Shown here piece by piece: positions 7,500 through 63,049 of a stretch of 64,000 bases of DNA (position 1 is the stretch's first letter; every line of letters starts with the position of its first letter). A model generated the notes under the pieces. The model was not told the DNA's origin. It did not search any database and saw only the letters and a program-made list of their open reading frames with translations. This stretch comes from Ricordea florida (lineage: Eukaryota; Cnidaria; Anthozoa; Corallimorpharia; Ricordeidae). The stretch covers positions 1,209,696 through 1,273,695 of the forward strand of contig OX453272.1 in NCBI GenBank assembly GCA_949710005.1, read 5' to 3'. The position numbers and the translations under genes are program-made.

Positions 7500-8083
7500 T
7501 TACAGGAGAAAAAGGACGGAAACTAAGTTTAAATACGGTTACAGTGTGGGAGATTACATACCGAAATGAAAAATACTATCGTGCTATTAATACATCGTGA
7601 TTAATACAATACAGGGAAAAATATGCAAAACGAGAAATACAATGCTGTACTATAAATTACGTCATACAGGGTGATAATTAATAGACCAAACGAAAAAGAT
7701 ACAATGCTGTGCATAAATTACATTATAAAGCGGGATAATTGCAGAACTAGGTTAAATTCAACCTAAAAACTAAAATAGTTAAAATAGATAAAACGGACTC
7801 TTGCAATGCGGTAAATATTACGGGAAAACTAGTTTACAAAGATATGCAGAAGAAACCTACGTTTACGCTGGACAGGGTTAATAACAAAATCCCAAATCGA
7901 GGCCTTTGGAGCATTAAAGGGTTAACAAACAACAAAATCCCTGGAGGGGCCCTTAAACAATAAGCTGTAATAAGATCCCAGGCAGGGCCTTTGAGCATAC
8001 CTAACACCCAAAGAGCTGGCAAAATCCAAGGAAGGGCTTTTGGACTGCTTTATGGCGCAAACGCATATTTACACAAGAGAAAG

Positions 8084-8806
8084 TTAATTATAACAAATTC
8101 TGTTTTTGGAGTGAAATTCTTTTCTTTTATTTAAGCCATGGGGAGCCATAGAAAACAGTTGAGCACTCCAATAAGCCTCTTTCGTAATTAAAAACCTATC
8201 GATCTCGTCTGAGTCATTAGGGGCCTGCACCTGATCAATGCATTGGAATTCAAAATCATCCAAGGAGTGTGGAATTTTATTGAAATGTACTGCTACCTCA
8301 CAAGTGGTTTTGTTTGTGAGCATAGCAGACTTGTGGTTACGAAACCTAACCCGAAAATCGGTGGTAGTTGATCCTACGTACTGTAAACGACATTTCTTGC
8401 AGGAAACTAAATAGATCACGTTTTTAGAATCACAAGAAAGCCTTGAATGAATGGTGTATTTTCTGCACGTTCTAAAACTTAGAAATGATTTAGATTCAAC
8501 AAAGAAATTTCGACAGAGATCGCATCTATTTCTTTCACATTTAAAGCAGCCATTGTTTGGCTGAATTGTTTGTCCCTCATCGGCGGTTTTAAAACGAGAT
8601 GGTGCTAATAATTCTTTCAGGTTTTTTGTTCTACGAAAAGATGGTATGATAGAGCCTTGAGGGAAAAGTTCTTTCAATTTAGGGTTGGATTGCAAAATCA
8701 ACAAATGCTTTCTAATTATGCTACTCACATTAGGCAAGTTAGGATTAAATGTGAGAACAAATGGAAATAATTTCCTCGATTGTTTTCCGCGTTGCCGTAG
8801 TAAATC
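8084..8806 (-). pseudogene. Penelope GIY-YIG endonuclease domain (left copy)
   Basis: The frame is open from the palindrome junction (8,806) to a stop at 8,084. Most reads best as the C-terminal 240 or so residues of a Penelope polyprotein rather than a gene with its own start. A linker contains a Cys cluster, CFKCERNRCDLC. A GIY-YIG-type nuclease core follows, with NVIYLVSCKKC and QYVGST about ten residues apart, then an R..NHKSAM helix and a terminal AYWSAQLFSMAPHGLNKRKE segment. In Penelope elements this nuclease nicks the target so the RT can prime. The reading frame here has no internal stop and so is the better preserved of the two arms, but the RT domain is missing. It is a truncated element fragment and would have no transcript start of its own. 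Confidence 0.88.
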
Positions 8807-9599
8807 TTGTTAATCAGGGTTATCCCCCAAAATTAGTTGACGATCAATTCTCCAAAGCCTCCACCATTTCTAGGATTGATTTACTACGGCAACGCGGAAA
8901 ACAATCGAGGAAATTATTTCCATTTGTTCTCACATTTAATCCTAACTTGCCTAATGTGAGTAGCATAATTAGGAGGCATTTGTTGATTTTGCAATCCAAC
9001 CCTAAATTGAAAGAACTTTTCCCTCAAGGCTCTATAATACCATCTTTTCGTAGAACAAAAAACCTGAAAGAATTATTAGCACCATCTCGTTTAAAACCGC
9101 CGATGAGATACAAACAATTCAGCCAAACAATGGCTGCTTTAAATGTGAAAGAAATAGATGCGATCTCTGTCGAAATTTCTTTGTTGAATCTAAATCATTT
9201 CTAAGTCTTAGAACGGGCAGAAAATACACTATTTATTCAAGGCTTTCTTGTGATTCTAAAAACGTGATCTATTTAGTTTCCTGCAAGAAATGTCGTTTAC
9301 AGTACGTAGGATCAACTACCACCGATTTTCGGGTTAGGTTTCGTAACCACAAGTCTGCTATGCTCACAAACAAAACCACTTGTGAGGTAGCAGTACATTT
9401 CAATAAAATTCCACACTCCTTGGATGATTTTGAATTCAAATGCATTGATCAGGTGCAGGCCCCTAATGACTCAGACGAGATCGATAGGTTTTTAATTACG
9501 AAAGAGGCTTATTGGAGTGCTCAACTGTTTTCCATGGCTCCCCATGGCTTAAATAAAAGAAAAGAATTTCACTCTAAAAGCAGAATTTGTTATAATTAA
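8807..9599 (+). pseudogene. Penelope GIY-YIG endonuclease domain (right copy), one frameshift
   Basis: The frame runs from the junction through IDLLRQRGKQSRKLFPFV and the conserved FRRTKNLKELLAPSR segment. One base is lost in a T run near 9,091, since the left copy has four T and this one three. The zinc-cluster and nuclease part therefore continues in another frame, with 9,264-9,599 holding IYLVSCKKCRLQYVGSTTTD through to GLNKRKEFHSK. Apart from the frameshift it matches the left copy closely, including the K/Q difference in DFEF(K/Q)CIDQ. The domain is the same nuclease as in the left arm. The single slippage-type lesion and otherwise intact motifs fit a recent copy. Confidence 0.85.
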
Positions 9600-9640
9600 C
9601 TTTCTCTTGTGTAAATATGCGTTTGCGCCATAAGGCAGTC

Positions 9641-9815
9641 CAAAGGCCGTTCCTTGGATTTTGCCAGCTCTTTGGGTGTTAGGTATGCTCAAAGGCCCTG
9701 CCTGGGATCTTATTACAGCTTATTGTTTAAGGGCCCCTCCAGGGATTTTGTTGTTTGTCAACCCTTTAATGCTCCAAAGGCCTCGATTTGGGATTTTGGT
9801 ATTAACCTTGTCCAG
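9641..9815 (+). repeat. Tandem GGCC-hairpin motifs in Penelope 3' UTR
   Basis: The 3' UTR after the endonuclease holds four degenerate units of about 45 bases. Each has AAAGGCC or AAGGGCCC, a few bases, then GGGATTTT or GGATCTT. The left arm carries the mirror copy at about 7,885-8,045. The diverged deleted Penelope downstream has the same series at about 11,245-11,420, including CCCTGTTCAGGG, which can form a small hairpin. Confidence 0.55.
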
Positions 9816-10186
9816 CGTAAACGTAGGTTTCTTCTGCATATCTTTGTAAACTAGTTTTCCCGTTATATTTACCGCATTGCAAGAGTCCGTTTTATCTATT
9901 TTAACTATTTTAGTTTTTAGGTTGAATTTAACCTAGTTCTGCAATTATCACGCTCTATAATGTAATTTTTGCCCAGTATTGTATCTTTTTCGTTTGGTCT
10001 ATTAATTATCACCCTGTATGACGCAATTTATAGTACAGCATTGTATTTCTCGTTTTGCATTTTTTTTTTCCCTGTATTGTATTAATCACAATGTATTAAT
10101 AGCACGATAATATTTTTCATTTCGGTATGTAATCTCCCACACTGTAACCGTATTTAAACTTAGTTTTCGTCCTTTTTCTCCTGTAA

Positions 10187-10213
10187 CTGACGAAGGTCTA
10201 AGACCGAAACGTT
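10187..10213 (+). ncRNA. Hammerhead-like core, class A (right arm)
   Basis: Same motif as at 7,473-7,499, on the plus strand in the right arm. It lies about 195 bases before the element end, in a region repeated directly at 10,507-10,705. Confidence 0.5.
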
Positions 10214-10383
10214 TTCTATTAAATTTTTAACTTTTTAACTTTTTTATCGTCAGAAGTTGTCCGTCCTTGCTTTTTCAAACGTTTTTAAATTCATTTTTGT
10301 GGTGAGGCTTGGACTGTGAATCTTCATTGATCCTCCTGACGAAGTGGCATTATTTGTTGGCTTGAGGCATTTTATAACCGTTT

Positions 10384-10506
10384 TTATATATATATATATA
10401 TATAACTTTTTATATAACTTTTTATATATATATATATATATATAACTGACGAATATATATATATGACGAATATATATATATGACGAATATATATATATAT
10501 ATATAA
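10384..10506. repeat. (TA)n tract with interspersed TGACGAA units
   Basis: TA dinucleotide repeats separate two Penelope ends. Inside, ATAACTTTTTATAT occurs twice, and TGACGAA followed by TATATATATA recurs near 10,445-10,490. The microsatellite appears to have captured and copied the first bases of the hammerhead-like motif (CTGACGAA). Confidence 0.7.
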
Positions 10507-10705
10507 CTGACGAAGGTCTAAGACCGAAACGTTTTTTCTATTAAATTTTTAACTTTTTAACTTTTTTATCGTCAGAAGTTGTCCGTCCTTGCTTTATCTA
10601 ACGTTTTTAAATTCATTTTTGTGGTGAGGCTTGGACTGTGAATCTTCATTGATCCTCCTGACGCAGTGGCATTCTTTGTTGGCTTGAGGCATTTTATAAC
10701 CGTTT
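10507..10705 (+). repeat. Penelope terminal repeat (direct copy), hammerhead-like class A
   Basis: This is a direct repeat of 10,187-10,385, about 199 bases, starting exactly at the hammerhead-like motif (CTGACGA to GTT, 10,507-10,533) and ending at TTATAACCGTTTT. It sits just before a Penelope N-terminal coding fragment (10,766), so it is in the position of a 5' pseudo-LTR. The two copies differ at only a few positions. Confidence 0.75.
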
Positions 10706-10765
10706 TTAATATTTGATACTCCGCTCTCATCCGCCTTCGAATCGTCCGTCCTGGTTGATCCAAAG

Positions 10766-11041
10766 ATGCTACGTCTTAATTCTATAGTCAACATAGCTGC
10801 TTTTGTTTGGAACAAGCTCTCCAGATATCAGCACCATTGTACTTTCCTTAAACGTTGTTTGGATCGTAACGTTATTCCTGTTGGCTTTAATTTTCATTTT
10901 CATTTGGCTTTGAAAATTGATGATGTTAGTCTCAACACGTTTTGTAAACACTCACTTCAACGCACATCGAGGGACATTTGCAATGCGGTTTTACGTGCTT
11001 CCCACGAGAAGGTTAACCTCCTTCCTGTATTGTATAAGTAA
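10766..11041 (+). pseudogene. Penelope ORF N-terminal fragment
   Basis: A 91-codon frame lies 61 bases after the terminal repeat. Features are LNSIVNIAAFVWNKLSRYQH, then FLKRCLDRNVIPVGFNFH, then a Leu/Asn-rich helix with LNTFCKHSL. The pattern of a short basic segment, R-x-VIP-x-G-F, then helices recalls the N-terminus of Penelope polyproteins that precedes the RT. It ends at a stop at 11,039-11,041, and the next recognisable sequence (11,085) is from the extreme C-terminus of the same protein type, so roughly the central 600 or so codons are deleted. Whether the true start is this ATG or one upstream cannot be told. A product would have no enzyme domain. Confidence 0.65.
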
Positions 11042-11084
11042 CAATTGTTGTAAGTAACAGTTGTTCTTGTACAATACAAGTAAC

Positions 11085-11204
11085 ATCGAAAAGCTTTTAA
11101 TCACTAAAGAGGCATATTGGAGCGCACAGTTGTTCTCTCTGGCACCTTTTGGCTTGAATAAACGTCAGGAATTCCACTCGAAAAAAAGAATAAACTACAA
11201 CTAG
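11085..11204 (+). pseudogene. Penelope ORF C-terminal tail
   Basis: In the frame starting at 11,085 the sequence reads IEKLLITKEAYWSAQLFSLA, then PFGLNKRQEFHSKKRINYN and a stop. It is the same end as in the two palindrome copies (there IDRFLITKEAYWSAQLF and PHGLNKRKEFHSK), clearly homologous but more diverged. It marks the right edge of the internal deletion in this element. Confidence 0.8.
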
Positions 11205-11759
11205 CGTAAAAATAACTTGCTAATTTGGCGGTTATCTTAGTTCAGGTGTTCAAAGGCCCTGACCTTGGATCTTGTTAGCTTTGTTAGTGCAAGGTTTTCT
11301 CAGGGGCCCCCATCGGGGAATTTATTACATTATTGTTGTTTAAGGGCCCTGTTCAGGGCGCCTGTTGTGCCTTGCCGCGGCATAGCTTCAAGGGCTTTGT
11401 TTGGGGTTTTTATTACAAGTTTTTCCTAGGATGGCCTTTTATGAATACTGTGAATATTTTACACGCGGGTCCCTTCACACTTTTGGCTGACTTGACGAAT
11501 CATGTTATAGTTTTTTAACATTAATCTTATTTGTATTATATCCGATTATTTATTCATATTTGGTTTGCGTTTCTTGAGTTTTGTATCGCATTGTCATAGT
11601 TTCTCGCTTAGTAATCACCGATTGTTTATCATTGGTTAATTTTTTCATTTTCATGTGTTACCACGCCCTGTTATGTAATCATCTTTGTTATATTATGTCA
11701 TCTTTTATACTGTAAACCTATTTAAGGACATTGCAATTTCTTATTCACTTGCACTGCAA

Positions 11760-11786
11760 CTGATGAAGGTCATTGACCGAAACGTC
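11760..11786 (+). ncRNA. Hammerhead-like core, class A variant
   Basis: CTGATGA, extra A, GGTC-ATT-GACC, GAAAC, GTC. Compared with the other class A copies the loop is ATT rather than TAA, while the stem is kept, and the putative cleavage triplet is GTC, the classical one. Stem III would again be only the self-complementary ACGU. It lies in the 3' terminal region of the deleted Penelope. Confidence 0.5.
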
Positions 11787-12000
11787 TATTTTTATTAAAT
11801 TTTTAAACTTTTTTTAGATTTTTTACTGTATATATATATTTTTTTTTTCGCTCGAAGTTGTCCGTCCTCGTTTTCCACAATTGCCTACAAATTTCATTAC
11901 TCGAGGTTTGGACTACGAATCCTTTTGGATCCTTCTGGCGTGTGGCATCCCTGTTGGCTCGAAGCATCATAACTTTTTATATATATATATAGATATATAT

Positions 12001-12170
12001 ATATATATACCCCCTGATGAGTGGGCAACCACGAAACAGGCTTGTAGGGATAAACCTGTAGTTTGTTTGTGTGTTTTTTCTCCCGCAACAACTACTTCGC
12101 TCTACGTTCACGTATTGAGCACTGTTTTACGATTAATCAACTTTTACACTTTATATATATATATATATAG
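12001..12170 (+). repeat. Penelope terminal repeat B, plus copy between (TA)n tracts
   Basis: The unit starts at the hammerhead motif (12,014) and runs through TTTGTTTGTGTG, CTCCCGCAACAACTAC, TTCGCTCTACG and ATCAACTTTTACACTTTA into (TA)n. The same unit, whole or partial, occurs at 12,661, 12,791, 12,875, 15,365 and 60,371 on both strands. Confidence 0.75.
12014..12060 (+). ncRNA. Type I hammerhead ribozyme candidate, class B
   Basis: The core reads CUGAUGA (12,014-12,020), stem II GUGG with a GCAA loop and CCAC, then GAAA (12,033-12,036). Stem III is formed by ACAGG (12,036-12,040) and CCUGU (12,055-12,059), five pairs around a 14-base loop. The residue after it is A (12,060), giving a GUA cleavage triplet. 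All core positions of the hammerhead consensus are present. Stem I can form only one clear pair with adjacent sequence, so activity of this copy alone is doubtful. Type I hammerheads in Penelope terminal repeats are an established finding, including in cnidarians as I recall. Confidence 0.7.
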
Positions 12171-12180
12171 ACCAGTAGGT

Positions 12181-12652
12181 GAACTACTCAAATCCTGAGT
12201 GCAAGGGCGTTTAATACAAGCCTGTTTCGTAGGCCACCGAAAAGGTGACCCACTCTTCAGTTAAACTCCATTATAACACTGAAGCGTCAGGGTCTACATC
12301 AAGAAATGTGATCGCGTGATAAAAACGGTTACATATAACGTGGAAGATACTCGCCAAAGCAAAATCTTACACCAATCTTACAAAACGTTGCAATCTATGT
12401 ACAACAGAGAAGTTCTTTTTAATCTGTAGACCTCACATGGCAACACTGAACAAACGCAACGAACTTGTCTCTACATTAAGACATCGACGCAAGTTCATCC
12501 TAAGATACAATCGAACATGTGAAAGCCAGAGATTGTAGCGCGAGCTTTCGTGTGACTTAGGTTTCGCGTAAGAGATGTAGGCGATTGAGAGCAAGCGCGC
12601 GCTTTCCATTCTGAAATTTCTGTCTTGGCTTCGCCGGTGAACATCTAACTGG
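12181..12652. other. Fragment with class C hammerhead-like motif, otherwise unassigned
   Basis: Between two (TA)n tracts lies about 470 bases without coding signal. Near its left edge a hammerhead-like core sits on the minus strand (12,221-12,260), suggesting the end of another Penelope family on that strand. The rest I cannot assign. Confidence 0.4.
12221..12260 (-). ncRNA. Hammerhead-like core with long stem II, class C
   Basis: On the minus strand CUGAAGA is followed by GUGGGUCACC, a UUUUC loop, GGUGGCCUAC, then GAAACAGG. Stem II can pair over ten positions counting G-U wobbles, and CUGAAGA satisfies CUGANGA. The 3' partner for ACAGGC is only partly kept (GCC then mismatches), so stem III and the cleavage site look decayed. 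Confidence 0.55.
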
Positions 12653-12691
12653 ATATATATAGTTGTTGCGGGAGAAAAAACACAAACAAAC

Positions 12692-12738
12692 TACAGGTTT
12701 ATCCCTACAAGCCTGTTTCGTGGTTGCCCACTCATCAG
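12692..12738 (-). ncRNA. Type I hammerhead ribozyme candidate, class B (minus copy 1)
   Basis: Minus-strand copy of the class B core with the same stem II (GUGG/GCAA/CCAC) and stem III (ACAGG/CCUGU) as at 12,014-12,060. It is part of an 80-base cassette, 12,661-12,740, whose other end (CAACAACT) directly abuts (TA)n. Confidence 0.65.
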
Positions 12739-12753
12739 GGGATATCCTTTTAC

Positions 12754-12791
<38 letters not shown>

Positions 12792-12823
12792 GTTGTTGCG
12801 GGAGAAAAAACACACAAACAAAC

Positions 12824-12870
12824 TACAGGTTTATCTCTACAAGCCTGTTTCGTGGTTGCCCACTCATCAG
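12824..12870 (-). ncRNA. Type I hammerhead ribozyme candidate, class B (minus copy 2)
   Basis: Same core as at 12,014 in the left arm of the perfect inverted pair. The G-to-A change (GUAGAGAU) lies in the loop of stem III and leaves both stems intact. Confidence 0.65.
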
Positions 12871-12875
12871 GGGGC

Positions 12876-12922
12876 CTGATGAGTGGGCAACCACGAAACA
12901 GGCTTGTAGAGATAAACCTGTA
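12876..12922 (+). ncRNA. Type I hammerhead ribozyme candidate, class B (plus copy 2)
   Basis: Right arm of the inverted pair, exact mirror of 12,824-12,870. The full terminal repeat continues to about 13,010 (ATCAACTTTTACAT), unlike the two truncated minus copies. Confidence 0.65.
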
Positions 12923-13067
12923 GTTTGTTTGTGTGTTTTTTCTCCCGCAACAACTACTTCGCTCTACGTTCACGTATTGAGCACTGTTTTACGATTAATC
13001 AACTTTTACATTATATTCTTTTTACATTATATTCTTTCTCATGCTTTCCGTAGAACTGAGAATTTTA

Positions 13068-13385
13068 TTAAACGGAAAGATGGTGAAATGCGATGTTAGC
13101 CAACATTGGCAGAGTATTCCTGATAAGATGGAAGACTAAAGGATTGTTGGGATTGTATGTTGCAACAAGACAAAGAAGGTTGTTGTCGTTGCTTCCCTTT
13201 TCTTTCACCATTCGTAGTTCCTGGGGAGTTTGGGTGAGTGCCTTCTCGATTCCAAGATTAATAACATTTTCCGTGTACTTCATACTGGGCAGGATGTATT
13301 TAAGCTATTGGAGACGATGCTCTCTTTTCGCCTGGTTTTCGATAATTATGTATATCCTACGGGCTAAGTTAAAGGGTCTGTTATT
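13068..13385 (-). pseudogene. Penelope linker between RT and endonuclease, broken
   Basis: On the minus strand from about 13,385 one frame reads RPFNLARRIYIIIENQAKRE, an in-frame TAG, LKYILPSMKYTENVINLGIE, then KALTQTPQELRMVKEK and YNPNNPLVFHLIRNTLPMLA, stopping at 13,068. The (Y/F)NLARRI, YP-x-x-x-I, GIEKAL and NP-NNP-x-x-F-x-LI landmarks are those I associate with the stretch following the RT thumb in Penelope proteins. It lies on the same strand as, and 3' of, the RT remnant at 13,753-15,368, separated by a repeat block, so both may come from one insertion. The endonuclease that should follow is missing; a terminal repeat B in the opposite orientation begins instead. Confidence 0.7.
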
Positions 13386-13389
13386 TTTA

Positions 13390-13760
13390 AGAACGAGAAA
13401 ATGTAAGTTGAAGCCACACATATGCGCACCGAGGCGACTGTGGTAGAAGGGATTAAACCCTGTTGCTACCAAAAAAAAGATGAAAAAATTGAGCTCAAAA
13501 GCCAGCAGCCATGGACCGCTGTTTCGACTTTGTTAGGCCTCATCAGCGTGGCACAGCTAGCAGATGAGCTCTGGGTTCCCACATTATGAATGTCAAAGTG
13601 ATGAAAAATGGTAGGGTTGTGGGATGTGGCTTGAAATGACAACGACAAAATGTAATAAGGGTAAGTTGAATCCACACATATGCGCACTGAGGCGACAGTG
13701 GTAGAAGGGATTAAACCTTGTTGCTACCAAAAAATATATGAAAAAATTGAGCTCAATAGC
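13390..13760 (-). repeat. Partial tandem repeat (about 258-bp period) with hammerhead-like class D
   Basis: Segments 13,403-13,503 and 13,661-13,760 are direct copies about 100 bases long (GTAAGTTGAA...GAGCTCAA), offset by 258 bases. They flank a hammerhead-like core on the minus strand (13,521-13,546). A few-hundred-base tandem unit containing one type I hammerhead is the architecture of animal retrozymes and of Penelope terminal repeats. It interrupts the Penelope fragments on either side. Confidence 0.65.
13521..13546 (-). ncRNA. Hammerhead-like core, class D
   Basis: On the minus strand: CUGAUGA, GGCC, UAACAAA, GUC, GAAAC, then AGCGGUCCAUGGCUGCUGG. Stem II is short and imperfect. CAGC can pair with GCUG (13,508-13,522 region) as a stem III, but the base after GCUG is C where U is expected. 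The core is recognisable and probably decayed. Confidence 0.45.
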
Positions 13761-15368
13761 TTGTTTCCACAGTAAGCTGCATGTTATCGTTCAGGCCATT
13801 TAGGCCATTTAGAATACGGTGAAGTACGCCCAGTTTTTCTTCACCATATGGCCAGTTTATATAGCAATCGTCGACAAATCGTTTCCATTTGTTCTGAATG
13901 TAACGACCTATTTCTTCCCTGAAGATGTCAGTAATCCTTCCGTATAGTCTTTGCTCCAAGAATCCCAGAACTAGAGTTGCATAGCTAGGAGCTATTTTAG
14001 TTCCCATCGCGGTACCTTTCTTCTGAGGAAATATTTTGTCATCAAAGGTAAATGAATTGTTTGCCAAAATCATTATGATTGAATCAATAAAAAACTGTTT
14101 GTTGAAGCGTGGGTGTAGGCTCTCTGGGTGTTTGTTAAGCCAAAATGTAATGGCATGTACACCAAGTTCATGGGTAATGCTTGTGTATAAGCTTGTTACG
14201 TCGAATGAGGCTAATATTGTATTTTCAGGCAGTCTCCGGTAGGTAGTTGAGGAAATCTATCGTGTCCCTCAGATAACTTTGGACATAGGAAGAGAAGGGC
14301 TTAATAAGTAAGTCCACAAAGTTACTGAGTCTGCTTGTCGGACAAATAGGACCAGCAACTATCGGTCTGAATTTGAGATCTGTGGGTCTCAGGACCTTGA
14401 TGTACGGTTTGTTCTGGGCCTTCGCTTCCTGGCATATAACCTTGTTTTTATGTATTTTAGGAAGGCCATAGAAACCACTTGTTCGAAAATTAAAGCGACA
14501 GAGATAGTCTATCTCTGCTTTCGTTTAATTGTGAGTATGTTTAAGTGTTAGCTCCTTTATAAGCTTTATAACTGTTTTGTCTGTGTTACTCGAGATTTCA
14601 AAATAGGTTTCTGAGTCGTTCAGCATTTCTACCATTTTATCGGCGTAATACGCTCGGTCCATAACTACTACTGCTTCCCCCAGCTAACTACTACTGCTTC
14701 CAGTTCCAAAGATAATCATCTCAGAATCATCCTTCAGTTCTGTCACAGCATTTTCTAACTCTATGGTTAGATTGGAGCGTACAGTGGCATAGAGGGTAAT
14801 TCTTCAAGAGGGTATTTTGTAAGGAAGTCTATATAGTTATCTAGGGTAATGTTCCTGTTCATTGGAAGGTAGAAATTACTTTTATTCTTCGCCAAGCTTT
14901 CTTCCACACTCGAAACGTCCGGGTTGCCTTCAAAGAATTCCTTTTTCCGTAGTTTCGCACAAAAAAAGTTTTGATATTTGCGTCGAATTCGCATACATCC
15001 TTTCTCAGAGTTGGCGTAGACTTACGCCCTTTTGATAAGAGTTTTATCCGCCCTTCTGTAACTTCCTTAGAAGATAAATTAACAATCTTTAAATTCGAGA
15101 AAGTGTTCCCTTAATGCATTACCCTAAAAGTTTGTGATGTTAGGTTTGATTTGCATAATTCCTCCGGCCTTGCCCTAAAAAAGCCCCCCATTTTGCTACG
15201 TTGTTGTACGTTTGGCCTACCGGTTCTCTCACGCCGATTACCTCTTGTACTCTGAGTACCGTTATCTCTACGGTTTCTGCCCATGTTTCGGCTTATGTTT
15301 CTTTGTTGATTATTGCTTCGGTTTGTGTTACGCCTAAATACTTCAGAATAGATTGCTCTCGGTCTCAC
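13753..15368 (-). pseudogene. Penelope reverse transcriptase with N-terminal region, broken
   Basis: Read on the minus strand from 15,368 the landmarks follow the order of a Penelope polyprotein. A basic N-terminal part (15,111-15,368) has RRNTNRSNNQQRN and KMGGFFRARPEELC. A second block (14,767-14,994) has FCAKLRKKEFFEGNPD, MNRNITLDNYIDFLTKYP. RT sequence then contains GFYGLPKIHK near 14,450-14,478, LKFRPIVAGPICPTSRLSNF, ASFDVTSLYTSI (motif A), KGTAMGTKIAPSYATLVLGF (motif B) and FVDDCYINWPYGEE (catalytic motif C, both Asp kept). Frames change several times (for example near 14,220-14,240), and there are stops between the blocks. Penelope RTs are related to telomerase and prime at nicks made by their GIY-YIG partner. 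The copy is dead and ends abruptly at about 13,760 against the repeat block. Confidence 0.88.
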
Positions 15369-15515
15369 TCGTCAGTTGGCAACCACGAAACAGGCTTGTA
15401 GGGATAGACGTGTAGTTTGTTCGTGTATTTTTTTCTCCCGCAACAACTACTTCGCTCTACGTTCATGTATTGAGCACTGTTTTACGTTAATTAACTTTTA
15501 CACTTTATATATATA
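15361..15515 (+). repeat. Penelope terminal repeat B, degraded, inverted relative to RT
   Basis: The same unit as at 12,001-12,170 lies directly upstream of the minus-strand Penelope N-terminus, but in the opposite orientation. Inverted terminal repeats at the 5' side are a known feature of Penelope insertions. The hammerhead start has decayed to CGTCAGTTGG, while GCAACCAC-GAAACAGG remains (15,370-15,414). Confidence 0.7.
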
Positions 15516-15522
15516 TTACTCA

Positions 15523-15523
15523 G

Positions 15524-15595
<72 letters not shown>

Positions 15596-15597
15596 AG
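15523..15597. repeat. (TAC)n microsatellite
   Basis: An uninterrupted trinucleotide array of about 75 bases. It follows the (TA)n end of terminal repeat B. Confidence 0.95.
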
Positions 15598-15599
15598 CT

Positions 15600-18500
15600 A
15601 CTTCATCTTTACAAAACCTGGCATGACCGTCCTATTGAGGCCTTAAGTCAAAATGGCGGCTTTCTGTCCCGGCCCGACCCCTTGCCACACCTTTGGGTTC
15701 AAAACGAATACTAATGACACATCCACCATCTGCAAAATATTATCTAAACAATCAATCAGAATTGCCGTGTCTCAGTGCTTGTTGGGTTTGTAGAGTTGGC
15801 GGTGATTTGGGAATATAACAGAAAGGACAGCGAAAGCCAGATTGGCACTGAAAATATTAAGACAGTGGAATTTTAATTGAAAGTTTACAGAAATTAAAAA
15901 TAAACATCTGAGTTAGCAGTTCAATGAGGATAGTTATACTTGAACGTTTTGCTTTCTGAAGTGAAGCCTTATTTTGCGCTCGTGATTCTAGTCATGCGTT
16001 TTCAGGTGTAAGCTACTGAGAGACGTTTTTTGAAACAGAACTTCGTTTCTCTGTAAGTTCTCTTCAGCTTGCATCTGCAACGTCATACCCTTTGGCTAAA
16101 TGGAATAGTACTCAGCGCAATAAATAGTCCTCTCTTCATCAGTGACACATTTTTTATTGACTCTCAACTGTCGTTTCGATACCGTTTTGTTTCCCATTGA
16201 CACTTCTACGTCTGCAGACAAAGCATGTTTCTTTTCTCGTCTTCTGATCTTACCAAGGGTTCATGCATGGTGCACCTATTTTTTTTCCTTTCATTCTTTC
16301 TCTGCTTGCATGTTATAACGTGTTTTAACATGCTACGTATCATGCGGCGGGTGTAATCGTGTTCAGTAAAATCTTATGTACCTACAATTTCTAAAATGGA
16401 ATAGCACGGAAAAAGAAAGGAAAAACTTATGTAGGTGACTGGCAAGGCAGAGACCTTCTTTTGCTTCCAAATTAGGAGTATGGTTTATTTATCAACTGTT
16501 TTGCTCTAAAGATGCCGGAAATGCTGTTGCAAGCTCCTGTAGTCCCATACGATTACCCCTGGTGCAAGCTTGTAATCTGCATCACAAGCTACAATCACTT
16601 ACAATTTTTTTCATTAAGCGAAATCTCGCCAGAGATCTCTCGGGCCTTGTCAAGAAAAGGTGTTCTCGCTGTGGGATACTGCACAAAAAAAAATCTGTTT
16701 TTAAATCATGCAATGACTTACCCTCAGAACAAGCTGCAAGCTCAGAACCTTGCAATTAACGGAAAGTTTCGGAAGCAGCGAACTCCAAGCTTTGGTTATT
16801 AAATTTCCTTGCCACTTCTCTATCTTTCATTAGTGTTGACTTAAAGGCCCCCCCACGTTTCTTCATTGTCTCTTTAGATGCCCATATCCCGTCAAGAATC
16901 CAAGTGAGAAGGAACCCCACCGAGCCTTATTCAGAGGCTCTGTGACAGATGCAAATTCAAACTGCGTCTGCCCTTAGAAGTTTCCGGCACATGGTTCTTT
17001 TTAATTATGAATGTTTCCAAATCTTCTCTCGAAATCTTTTAATTTTGGCAAAATGCAAATTTCTTGGCAACCGTGGATAGGCGACTCCTATTCCCACCCC
17101 GCGCAAATATTTCAGCAACTCGGCAACTCGATTTACCGCATGTGGTTAAATTTGAAGGTGTTTAATCTGACTAGTGCTTCCCAGTTGCTCCGTTGTTTTC
17201 CTACACGACAAAGCATCATCACAATGAACAACCTCAACGAATGTTTGTTTTCTATTCTAACTCTCCAAGGTAAAGTCCGGTAGACGAAACACTCGTTCAA
17301 ACGATAACTTCATGGACAACACCATTGCTTTATTTTTATTTGTTCGATTGTCTCGTGGTGATTGGAAGCGTTCTCACCTACTCTATATTTTTTTCTTTCC
17401 CATTCCCTCAACAGAGGCGGTGAACCTCACATACAAAAGCATCTATTCTTTGTCTCCTTTAACGGAAGGCTTTCTTTACTCATTCTTTTCAAGAATTTCA
17501 CGAAAGCATTGCACCCAATAGATAGCGAATAGCGTTGTATTCTAGAAAACTTTCATCTCAGCAAAAAAAACCTACTAAAGCGGCACGACAAGCCGCAAAG
17601 AACCGCTTTCTTTTCTTTGGGTCGGACTCCTTGTGTGCTTTGTCAGATTTAAATAATTTGCAGACAAAGGCGTACTCAAAGACACCAATTTACTGGCGAT
17701 GTTGCCTGGGGTGCGAAATTCAGATTCTCTGAGAACACATTTTGCAAAACATTATAAAACTCGACTAGATCGCAGTTGCCAAGGTTATTCGCCGTTTCCC
17801 CTCGATTTTAACTTTCAGCTTAATTACTTTCTTCAGGCACCCTGCGTAGCAGTCCTAGGAAACGAAGAGATAGCGAAAATGAGAAAATATTGCCTCCGGC
17901 TAACAGAGGTTGTAAACAGCACATACGGTGGCTCTCAGATAAATGAGTAATTAGAATGAGTTCGCGGCTAACAAATCCTAACACTCTAGGTGGTCACACA
18001 TTGAAGTCGTAATATTAAATTTTTCTGGGGCAATCCTTGAGACTTGAGATTCACTTTCAAAACTTGAATGAGAATCCTTATAAACGTATGTCGTACCAAG
18101 AATATTACAGCGGTCCGCCTAAATCTTTTGGTTTTTCGCGGCATTCTTTGTAATTTCAATGTTCTTTATGTTCATTCTTTTTATGAACGTAGTTTAGCAT
18201 AATTTCCCCTAGTTTAATTTTGATCGGTTGTTGTATATCGATGTCAACTTGTGCTGGGTTATTTCTAGCAAGACCTAAATTTTTTGTGGATGTTTTCGTT
18301 CCCAACAGATCTTTTAAACCAAGACGTTTCTGACCACCAAACTTTGCCACAAGGCTAGACTTTCTTCGCTTTAAGACATGTTAACAGAACGTGTTTTCAG
18401 AATGAGTGTTTTCACGATTATCTATTCGAGCCCGAAAAGGTTTTCAGGACTATCAGAAAGCGCATGAAAAAATAAAATGAAAAATGAAAAAAGGCCGTTG

Positions 18501-37063: not shown

Positions 37064-37945
37064 CTATGAACGTGGTTGAGCTTCGAACGTGTGCTTGTCT
37101 GGCGGGCTCCAGTATGGATAATGGTGAACTGCTGGATGTTCGGTCTGCCGGCGACAGCCGACACCGGTCATCGCCACGGTTCCGTACCCACATTGGTTAT
37201 TGACAGGGTTCTGAATTTGTGTGGAGTATTGCGTACCTGTGTATGTGCTTACGGGAACACCAACAGTGGATGCCATGTTCATGTACGGAGATACATAACC
37301 CGGAGGGACTCTGGACGTTTGCGGGTTGCAGGAGTAGGCCGAAAGAGGACCAGCAGGCTGCCCAGTTCGCCAAGGTCCCGCTGCTGCGGCTGCAGCAGAC
37401 ACACTCTGAACTTGGTGGTTATATGTCGGCCACTTAGGAGCAAGTTGATAGTTCCCGTATGGGCCAGCACGCGGATCTGCCAACATACCGTTAGTGTGCG
37501 GCAGAGCCGGTTGGCGGTATGGTCTCTTCATGCGGCGACGTCGCCTGTAGTTTCCTTTCTCAAACATGTCCTCGCAGGCTGGATCTAAGGTCCAGTAGTT
37601 ACCCTTTCTTTCACCGCCTCCTTCACGAGGCACTTTTATGAAGCATTCGTTGAGCGACAAGTTATGTCTGATGGAGTTCTGCCAACCCTTCTTGTTCTTC
37701 TCGTAGAACGGAAACTTGCTGATAATGTACTGGTAAATTCCATTGAGGGTTAACCGCTTTTCTGAAGACTCTCGAATCGCCATCGCAATCAGTGCGACAT
37801 ACGAGTAAGGAGGTTTGACGTTTGGGTCTTTCGCTGAATCCTTGTTCTCGGTTTTGTCGCTTTCCCCAGGACTCGAGGCACTGTCGTCCTTGTTATGTTC
37901 CGGCTCATAGCTGCCGAGCTGCTGTTCATGGTTTGCTGAAGCCAT
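37064..37945 (-). CDS. foxl2: FoxL2 forkhead transcription factor
   Basis: The gene encodes a 293-residue nuclear DNA-binding protein on one exon. Residues 1-43 are acidic and Ser-rich. The forkhead domain spans about 44-137, with [17 protein letters not shown], the recognition helix [10 protein letters not shown] at 90-99, and the wing segment [19 protein letters not shown]. It ends in [14 protein letters not shown], a basic nuclear-localisation stretch that is a hallmark of FoxL2. A short poly-Ala run lies at 184-189, where vertebrate FOXL2 has a longer one. The Tyr/Pro-rich C-terminus has no further domain I recognise. The start is an ATG with AAAATGG context. Vertebrate FOXL2 is also single-exon, at about 376 residues. 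In animals FoxL2 governs ovarian and other cell fates, while its role in cnidarians is less settled. No pseudogene lesion is visible. The nearest recognisable genes or elements are more than 17 kb away on either side. Confidence 0.96.
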
Positions 37946-38000
37946 TTTGCTTGTGTGTGACGGAGTTAATTCTGAAGTGTTGGAGGCTGTTCTGTGGCAA

Positions 38001-38010
38001 TAATATATAA
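38001..38010 (-). promoter_or_regulatory. Possible TATA box of foxl2
   Basis: On the minus strand TTATATATTA lies about 56-65 bases upstream of the foxl2 ATG. That spacing would allow a short leader of about 30 bases. A CCACAG just downstream could instead be a splice acceptor, so the leader may be spliced. The region is AT-rich, so chance occurrence is quite possible. Confidence 0.3.
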
Positions 38011-41000
38011 ATTAGAAATTCTAAAGACTGTTTGGTGTTTGTCTTGTCGTTGTGACATTTGATTGGCTCACCTATTCATTATCTATCACTTTCTATAAAT
38101 ATCCTGACATCACGCTATCTTTTGTTCATCGGACCAATCATTATGCTCTTTACAAAGCGTCAATTGATTCATTTATTTGTCTGGTAGCAATGCGACCACC
38201 TACTCTGGCAGCTGTTTCTCCTCCGTTTAGGCCCTTAATTGTTTCTATCCATTCACTTGTATTATTTACTCTTTCTATGCCAAATTCCGTGTACCTTCCA
38301 CCGGCCCCAGCTGAAGTGTACAGTTTTCCTCACTAATTTGACTCCTGTTGTATATTTACACTCAAGGTGCGAAAATATTTTCCCGTTATCTTCGAGGAGG
38401 AGCGAAAAGTGAAACTCTCTCCCCCACACCCATAGTTAACACCTGGTACGCGGATATACCAATCAGAGTGAAGCAATAGGCAGATGAAGGGTATTGAAAG
38501 GCACAAAGCAATTCACATGTTGTCTGGCCCAAGTGCAGGCTATTTAGCTTTAATTATACGATGTAGATTTTATTTTTTATTATTACAAACTACCCGCTGT
38601 GCCGCTTTTTACCCGATAATGCAGCCCCACGCTGGGGTTCTATACCATGCAAATGCGCTTTGCTATTTCTACGAAAACAACATGACAAAACCGAAAGACA
38701 CAGGCCCATATTTCTCTCCACCTGTGCTCAGTGCGACTGATAGACAACTGATCCAGATTGCTAAGGAAGGCGCAAACTATCCCCAAATTCGACTCAAAAC
38801 GTGAAACCCTTATCGTGTGCGCGAACTGACTTGATTAGAAATACCCGAGTTGAGTCAACGGGTTTTCTTTATTGTGATAGTGGTGCTCGTTGATAAGCAC
38901 AAAATACTCATTTTCCCGCAGACAAGGACGAGCTGAGTATTATTATTTTCCCAGGTTTTAATTACAGTTTAGAGTTACTGCAATATCATGAAACCCCCAA
39001 AAGTAAATATTTCGCGAAGCCCTCTCGAACTGATTACAATATTTGCTAGTTCTATTAGGATTTGTATACATTCAAAATGTTTATTCAAACGAGTTGTTAA
39101 AGATTTATAATTCATTGTAAACAAACAATTTTTAGCGTGCAAGGGGCATTTCCTTAAGACTTACAACAAAATGTTCAAATCCCTGATGAACTCGAAGAAA
39201 TTTCTCAAAGTTGCTGCGCCTGTCTTAGTTTCTTGTTTTTCTCCACCGGAAATCGAATAGCTAGGATTCTCGAATTTCGCGTTCAATCTCGGAAAATGAA
39301 ATTCAAAGGTCAAATTCTCTTTGCGACACCATGTTCATCTCTTATGCTTCTTATCAGATCGTAGCAAATTGTTTGTCTTTGTAATTGTACAGCGGCGAAG
39401 GTGATCTTGTCTCAGAAATTTAAAATTCTGAGTAAAACGGGAGACAGGAGCAGGGCTGATATTCTGGAAAAAGTGACAAAAAACAGCTGTGTTTTCTGAA
39501 TTAAAATGCCGCAATCACGCGAAGCTCTCTTCAAGAAACCATGATATCTTTGATTTGATGAGAGAAAATAAATTCAAAGGCGCTGATAGCTTTTCGATGG
39601 AAACAAAATAAATTTTAACCCAATAGATTTTTTCGCTTTAGTTATTCCTCAAAGATTCAATTACCTTTCTTCCGTGACTTGGTCTCGATTAAATTAGCAC
39701 TTCCCCGAGCAGAGCGACGGAGATTGTTCTCTTAACTATATCTATCTCAAACGACTTTATCCCGTCAGGTAAAGTTGAGATTGCTATGAAGCGTTTCAAG
39801 ACACGACTGAGGTCACCCTGATATGTGCTCTACGGGTTGTACTCCTACTGTCCTCGCTAGACATAATTGTTTCTTCGTTCAGCCGCCATGATTGGCCAGC
39901 CGTCAATTTATTGCCCTATTATTTACATCTGAAACAACAGTTGTCTTCGATCGCGTGGGATTTTATTGAAATGCGCTTCATGTTAAAGTTAGTGCATTAG
40001 TGCGCTCGAAGAGTAATAAGCCGGTTCAGACCGACCTTTTTTCGATATTCTGATTATACGGTACTGAAGTACACTCTTCCTGGGTAGGTAATCCTACGTT
40101 CCGGCTGTGAAAATAGTTGAAAGAATCCGCGGAAGTTTATCTGTTAACCCGCTGCTTCTGTTTACCAAACTAATCTAAATTTCACGGCAGGATGGTGATT
40201 ATGTATTCGCAGCGTTTATTGCATTTATGTTTTGTCAAACCTCCGTGTTGACAGCTTTGCCCATGGCGGGAACACGATAATTAAGTGACAAGCGCTTGAA
40301 ATGAAGGAAACTTTCGGGGCACAACCGATCGTGTTAAAGTCCTACTAATCTGAAGCACTTGAGCCAACAGCTTTTGCCGTTTGACGGAAAAACCCTCGAG
40401 TGCTGATTTCAGCTTTTAGGCGGACTTGTTTGATCACAGGAAGCTTTTGAAATGTTTACCCGTTTCCATTGTTGTTATTCCTCAATTGCCAGTGTTATGG
40501 TTATTTAGGACCGTGGTTCAGGAACAACATTTCATCTTTTTGCAAGACCTCATTATATTGATAACACGAAGGTAAAGATCAGCTGTTTGCTAAACGATTA
40601 ATAAGCGCAAACCTTGAAACGCCACTGTATAATAGCATTTTCTTTCTACGCCAATAGCGAAAAGAGCGCGATCGATGCTGTTATCTAAATTTCTCGAAAG
40701 TTCAAATTAAATGTCAGTTAATCCTGTGTCAGGGTGCGGAGTTCCTCACATGCAGCGCAGAGACAGACTAAACTTGTGAAAATACTCTCTGATAGCTTGT
40801 TTGTTTACACAAGTCAATAATGATGCTGTCAACATGTTACCCGTCTTTACCTACGCTTATCAGCCGCCGTTAAACTCATCCGTTCCGGTGAGCTTTCAAA
40901 CCACTTCAGCAGTCCCTGAGGCCGTTAAAAAGCGACACTCTCCGATGTCGGTACCATCTACCGAGACCCCTGAGTAGAAACCCGATAAATCTTGGTTTGG

Positions 41001-62740: not shown

Positions 62741-62781
62741 ACTAAACGTATTGCTGGTATCTCATCTTGTCCCATGATCGT

Positions 62782-63049
62782 GTTCAACAATATACACCGA
62801 TCTTGTTCAACAATATACACCGATCTTGTTCAATAATATACACCGATCTTGTACAACAATATACCCCGATCTTGTTCAACAATATAGACCGATCTTGTTC
62901 AACAATATACACCGATCTTGTTCAACAATATACACCGATCTTGTACAACAATATACACCGATCTTGTTCAACAATATACACCGATCTTGTTCAACAATAT
63001 ACACCGATCTTGTTCAACAATATACACCGACTTGTTCAACAATATACAT
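62782..63049. repeat. 23-bp minisatellite, about 12 copies
   Basis: Unit GTTCAACAATATACACCGAT plus CTT, starting at 62,782, 62,805, 62,828 and so on every 23 bases to 63,012, then one 22-base copy at 63,034. Most copies are identical or differ at one or two positions (GTAC for GTTC, ATAG for ATAC). All three plus frames are open across it, which is a by-product of the repeat. Confidence 0.95.

Follow-up and report, generated by a model that had tools for sequence, protein, structure and literature searches.

Hammerhead ribozymes, tails, and palindromes are already known from Penelope-like elements. Minimal type I hammerheads with a very short stem III have been described in the pseudo-LTRs (pLTRs) of these elements and likely act as dimers, as far as the available parts of PMC7761336 and PMC6155905 describe them. 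PAc, a Penelope-like element of Anolis, was found to cut and extend both strands in vitro. It starts at two adjacent internal sites that flank the tail, and both sites were used on both strands with no strand difference. In the same work, no RNA reads were found at the hammerhead cut and insertion did not need cleavage (available portion of PMC11167929). Inverted pLTRs, head-to-head palindromes, and a tail on one of the pLTRs have been described for Penelope of the rotifer Adineta vaga, where the tail was called optional and self-priming was proposed (available portion of PMC3846280); the text of that article nowhere uses the term hammerhead. The metazoan retrozymes are abundant short elements with type I hammerheads that are organized as tandem repeats and give circular RNA (available portion of PMC7229834).

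In this report we describe a repeat, denoted B, from the corallimorpharian Ricordea florida, found in a stretch of 64,000 nucleotides (the window). Repeat B shares with the minimal Penelope-like hammerheads the predicted type I fold, the very short stem III, the location in a pLTR, and a likely action as a dimer; unlike those, the insertion starts of B seem to record cuts. Adjacent start sites with a tail, an AT-rich target, and a hammerhead near the start of the ORF are common to B and PAc, whereas each palindrome of B has one start site per end and no strand difference was reported for PAc. The inverted pLTRs, the head-to-head palindromes, and the single tailed pLTR of A. vaga Penelope are also found for B. 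Like the retrozymes, B is short, abundant, and equipped with a type I hammerhead, but it is part of an ORF-bearing element. The literature passages that our search covered contain no report of insertions beginning where a hammerhead cuts, nor of a rule of one tail per insertion, and both may have been reported elsewhere.

The conserved core of the hammerhead, CUGANGA...GAAA, and its numbering are well established. A sequence-only reading of the window had proposed a complete-looking type I hammerhead within a Penelope terminal repeat at positions 12014..12060 (+), and its letters were read correctly: CUGAUGA occupies 12014-12020, a 4-bp stem II capped by GCAA (GUGG-GCAA-CCAC) occupies 12021-12032, and GAAA occupies 12033-12036. 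The recurrence that it had noted at three further sites was also found, at 12660-12745 (-), 12790-12871 (-), and 12875-13016 (+). When the genome (538 Mb, 48 contigs) was searched with a 34-base core of repeat B, 1807 matches with at most 3 mismatches were obtained, compared with 0 for the reversed control, and thus the motif is not a product of chance.

Two GUA triplets lie 3′ of the hammerhead core, and the stem I that each of them would provide was scored in 107 distinct copies of B, taken from 81 loci and the window. Using the first GUA (12044-12046), a stem I of UAUCCC/GGGAUA with at least 5 bp is formed in 85 of the 107 copies, and hence the edge of a copy coincides with the 5′ strand of stem I. 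Using the second GUA, which had been chosen previously with a cut between 12060 and 12061, stem I is limited to 0-2 bp in 102 of the 107 copies and to 4 bp in one, with four unscorable, so that a stem I of at least 4 bp is found in 1 of 103 scorable copies. The stem I that had been described as missing is therefore present in the first register. The register supported by this pairing puts the predicted cut between GUA and GGGAUA, which is between 12046 and 12047 in the copy at 12010..12153 (B1). Repeat B carries a real hammerhead, predicted from its pairing to be of type I, and the earlier choice of fold was wrong.

With a descriptor for the supported register, two complete motifs were located in the window, at 12700-12745 (-) and 12209-12266 (-), and the same descriptor gave 2 matches in total on 200 dinucleotide shuffles. 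A previous version with a short stem II had missed the hammerhead at 12209-12266, and the descriptor was then widened. Among the fetched loci it matched 84 distinct places from four hammerhead families, in which stems I and II differ in sequence yet still pair. The copy at 12014 has the complete core but retains only 3 bp of stem I in the supported register, and each arm of the palindrome at 12790-12956 retains 1 bp; the only complete hammerhead in a B copy of the window is thus that at 12700-12745 on the minus strand. The core, stems I and II, a minimal stem III, and a UH triplet of the minimal Penelope type I hammerhead were all found. The stem III segments, for example ACAGGCUUGU and ACAGUACUGU, are entirely or almost self-complementary, and for this reason they are likened to hammerheads that act as dimers.

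The best predicted fold of a 63-nt stretch (-18.9 kcal/mol) is an alternative structure; the supported register gave -10.8 kcal/mol and the register of the sequence-only reading gave -10.3 kcal/mol. The 46-nt stretch folds best with stems I and II intact and core letters paired with CAGG. Since the predicted folds favor other structures, cleavage would need co-transcriptional folding, a dimer, or a protein (as reported for Anolis). The Rfam search that had been suggested as a check for the hammerhead returned no match at the gathering threshold over the whole window. At E ≤ 10 in 8000-16500, a sub-threshold type III hammerhead (19.5 bits, E 2.9) was obtained across the palindrome at 12844-12902 (-), and neither threshold provided a usable hammerhead match over its respective range. 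Outside the B copies, a sub-threshold match to Hammerhead_HH9 (22.8 bits against a gathering value of 52, E 0.05) lies at 13491-13561 (-). Strong Rfam microRNA matches in the region were set aside as inverted repeats.

The relationship of B to a longer element was examined with a 43-base pattern containing the core and one upstream sequence, for which 357 matches were found in the genome. This upstream sequence represents the 3′ UTR that follows an ORF, the end of which resembles a piece of the window in which Pfam recognized a GIY-YIG domain (BLASTP E 1e-4). Pfam recognized no family in the ORF pieces of the B element itself, a PDB search with the first of these pieces gave nothing useful, and this piece had no similarity to the reverse transcriptase (RT) piece of the window. 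The ORF of the B element at locus L050 contains what we take to be RT-like motifs, recognized by eye. Two of the 107 B copies continue into the 5′ UTR and the ORF, and the Penelope-type architecture of pseudo-LTRs, tail, and inverted head-to-head copies was found. The Penelope-like label rests on the GIY-YIG similarity, this architecture, the hammerhead, and the presumed RT motifs. The earlier placement of a type I hammerhead in a Penelope terminal repeat is supported, and B is probably the pLTR of a Penelope-like retroelement.

Two 3′ ends account for most of the 107 copies of B: 47 stop at the SHORT site (CAACAACTA), 53 at the LONG site (CACTTTA) approximately 60 nt beyond it, and 5 elsewhere, in addition to the 2 that run into the element. 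For the 5′ starts, 64 of 115 arms begin within -1 to +6 of ATATCCC, 34 begin in the upstream 3′ UTR, and 17 begin further in. The common starting edge proposed in the sequence-only reading is therefore real. This usual start is the 5′ edge of stem I and lies 40 nt upstream of the predicted cut; a ribozyme-cut RNA would lose these first 40 nt, and hence the usual boundary is not a product of cleavage. The earlier suggestion that it might do so fails for the ATATCCC edge but finds some support in 6 of 255 palindrome matches, described below, that lie at the cut. We take ATATCCC to be the 5′ end of the uncut RNA, for which a transcription start would be the simplest reason.

The copies in the window were assigned from the sequence, the classification of copy ends, the stem I counts, the descriptor, the repeat comparison, and the list of pairs, and the (TA)n tracts were taken from the tandem-repeat listing. 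A (TA)n target tract (11978..12009) precedes B1 (12010..12153, +), which consists of the pLTR and 5′ UTR and has a LONG 3′ end running into (TA)n. The SHORT-ended arm B2 (12660..12745, -) contains the hammerhead that reads from 12745 down to 12700, with the predicted cut between 12706 and 12705, and is followed by TTTTACACTTTA (12748..12759, +), which was read by eye as an apparent remnant of a LONG arm head to head with B2. A further (TA)n tract (12758..12791) separates the insertion of B2 from that of B3 (12790..12871, -), the SHORT arm of a head-to-head palindrome whose LONG arm is B4 (12875..13016, +).

Members of other families are found around these copies. The sequence between B1 and B2 (12171-12650) carries the complete minus-strand hammerhead of another family (12209..12266), with a stem I of GUUUAA/UUAAAC, a 10-bp stem II, and a predicted cut between GUA and UUAAAC. 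The pLTR of family A, another Penelope-like element, starts in a hammerhead-like sequence, CTGATGAAGGTCATTGACCGAAACGT, at 11760..11785 (+). Two pLTR families other than B, family A among them, start at 10187 (+), 10507 (+), 7499 (-), and 11760 (+), with cores of the form CTGA(T/C)GAAGGTC...GACCGAAACGT and an extra A before stem II. Inverted repeats of 594 and 219 nt (98%) with a 71-nt loop at 8000-9683 belong to a GIY-YIG-bearing Penelope-like piece and form a head-to-head insertion of another family; the sub-threshold Rfam calls in this hairpin label it as microRNA precursors. Diverged, older copies of B are located at 15368-15508 and from 60369 onward (+). The open frame at 37067-38011 (-) has a forkhead domain (Pfam E 2e-38) and is probably a host gene, and tandem arrays occupy 62776-63048 (23-bp unit, 12 copies) and 15524-15595 ((TAC)24).

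The two 3′ ends are paired in the palindromes. After the exclusion of 2 of 25 listed head-to-head neighbors, in which the plus arm has a nearer partner, 23 pairs were used, of which 21 combine one SHORT and one LONG end and 2 have one odd arm; SHORT/SHORT and LONG/LONG pairs were both found 0 times. Nine further palindromes, fetched for their turning points, were all SHORT plus LONG (a script identified the LONG side of six of them, whereas the other three loci and the SHORT sides were read by eye), and thus 30 of 32 palindromes have this arrangement, with each end beside (TA)n. At the observed frequencies of the two ends, the probability of 21 of 21 by chance is approximately 4e-7, a value to be read with two of the head-to-head pairs sitting in apparent local duplications. 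In the window, B3 and B4 follow the rule, and B2 seems to do so with the LONG partner that has shrunk to 12748-12759. All four adjacent pairs of family A, read by eye, are SHORT plus LONG. Two head-to-head pairs were also seen for family A2.

The two arms of a palindrome resemble one another. For the pairs on contig 1 with both ends normal, which make up 18 of the 23, the mean similarity within pairs was 0.962 versus 0.879 between pairs, a value reached in 0 of 2000 shuffles of the partners. The similarity fits an origin of both arms from one RNA or from identical RNAs and would fit a later exchange between arms as well; some pairs, such as L093 and C1:15741633/15741644, have differing arms, and the support for a single RNA is mixed. 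Two fixed and different 3′ ends argue for two separately primed cDNAs. The SHORT plus LONG pairing fits two-strand priming at the two internal start sites that in vitro work identified in PAc of Anolis.

Most palindromes turn at the usual boundary. With gapped patterns, 20, 26, and 209 palindrome matches were obtained in order of rising turn width (255 in all, with one locus shared by the first two classes). A search for the exact centre found 142 palindromes at ATAT, and 21 of 50 places listed for the widest class have exactly the ATAT gap. In 6 of the 255 matches the arms begin at positions 40/40 or 40/39, with 0, 1, 1, 1, 1, and 2 bases between them; a lone intervening base could be either template (position 39) or an addition, and if it is counted as template, one palindrome has both arms at exactly 40. 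The flanks of these six differ, but two of them adjoin the same family-A end. The base before GGGATAAACCTGTAGTTTGTTTG is A in 1270 places and another base in 22, and ten of the latter, when fetched, comprised three palindromes turning at the cut, two one-arm cases, four point variants, and one 1-base insertion.

Among 64 arms without microhomology, 23 start at positions 39-41, compared with approximately 4 expected for an even spread over 46 positions; the count covers 44 of the 45 distinct places in the two narrower turn classes (C6:21914483, matched in both, was counted once and C16:24012930, with one strand not printed, was left out). Two arms of the same palindrome are dependent observations, and copying from one another may account for the 41/43 trio and for a pair on C12. 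Five of the remaining arms start at position 43 and the others are scattered. Both arms start within 39-41 at 8 places. At three loci (CATCAG joined to GGGATA) an arm with the uncut end is connected to GGGATA through six bases, which may reflect the joining of a cut and an uncut cDNA, self-priming, or slippage. Near the predicted cut of family A itself, palindromes of that family were found at 2 places, one of which is compatible with a turn at the cut. The best reading of the cut-site turns is that they are insertions from ribozyme-cut RNA, made by a minority route, and this agrees with Anolis, where insertion does not require cleavage. The starts at the cut suggest that the RNA cuts itself in the living animal, although most insertions would come from uncut RNA. 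We regard this footprint of the cut, as read from the copies, as a strong hint.

Other explanations were considered both for the motif and for the palindromes. For the second-GUA register, a 5-bp stem III of ACAGG/CCUGU can be drawn and the energy (-10.3 kcal/mol) is near that of its rival (-10.8 kcal/mol); it was rejected on the absence of stem I from 102 of 107 copies, the energies not being decisive, and it is extremely unlikely that the cut at 12060 belongs to the active fold. The small size of B, its very large number of copies, and its type I hammerhead could also suggest a metazoan retrozyme, a non-autonomous repeat spread through circular RNA. This is very improbable given the 357 places that link B to the 3′ UTR of a single ORF-bearing element, the two copies that continue into the 5′ UTR and ORF of that element, and the fixed ends of copies that are often head to head. 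The window contains no tandem array of B, such as the non-coding repeats of approximately 150-450 bp that define a retrozyme.

The palindromes might instead arise if the 3′ end of a single cDNA folded back and primed the copying of that same cDNA, with the hammerhead as a passenger, as proposed for the head-to-head palindromes of the rotifer Penelope (available portion of PMC3846280). The likeness of the paired arms would be expected from this, as would the three loci at which six bases complementary to stem I link CATCAGGGGATA with GGGATAAACC. However, a self-primed cDNA should duplicate its own 3′ end, and in 30 of the 32 palindromes examined a SHORT end is combined with a LONG end, both adjoining (TA)n; in addition, the six turns at the cut place CCC beside GGG, arm ends that cannot anneal to one another and provide no pairing for priming. 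We consider self-priming unlikely. Damage at the level of DNA is a further explanation, in which longer palindromes lost their centres after insertion and position 40 is the base of a DNA hairpin. Palindromes are unstable, and the three CATCAG/GGGATA junctions could be the result of slippage between short direct repeats. Loss of a loop at that base should, however, bring ATATCCC next to GGGATA in ordinary copies, and this pattern, with 0-4 bases between, occurs at 0 places in the genome; the ends lack microhomology, and the same base is reached in both arms at six places. This explanation is also improbable.

The explanation that we favor, and regard as probable, is that B is the pLTR of a Penelope-like element inserted by two-strand priming at the SHORT and LONG sites, occasionally from a ribozyme-cut template. 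The first 46 nt of the RNA of the element would contain a minimal type I hammerhead that is prone to act as a dimer, with AUAUCCC holding the 5′ strand of stem I. The enzyme of the element would break both strands of a (TA)n target, and the two 3′ ends would then act as primers for reverse transcription, which would begin at the SHORT site from one of them and at the LONG site from its counterpart, with one RNA or identical RNAs presumably serving as the template for both cDNAs. After both cDNAs had run off the 5′ end of the RNA, their head-to-head joining would create a palindrome in which one of the two ends has a tail and the other has none. In the usual case the RNA would be uncut, with the join at ATATCCC; occasionally the hammerhead would cut the RNA first and both cDNAs would stop at GGGATA.

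We lean toward the view that the genome of R. florida holds a base-exact record of ribozyme cleavage in vivo together with two-primer palindromes, and that the mechanism itself imposes a single tail on each insertion. If the starts of insertions record cuts, ribozyme activity could be assessed for each family from genome assemblies. The pairing of SHORT and LONG ends would provide a simple, testable rule for the two-sided attachment to the target of these poorly understood retroelements.
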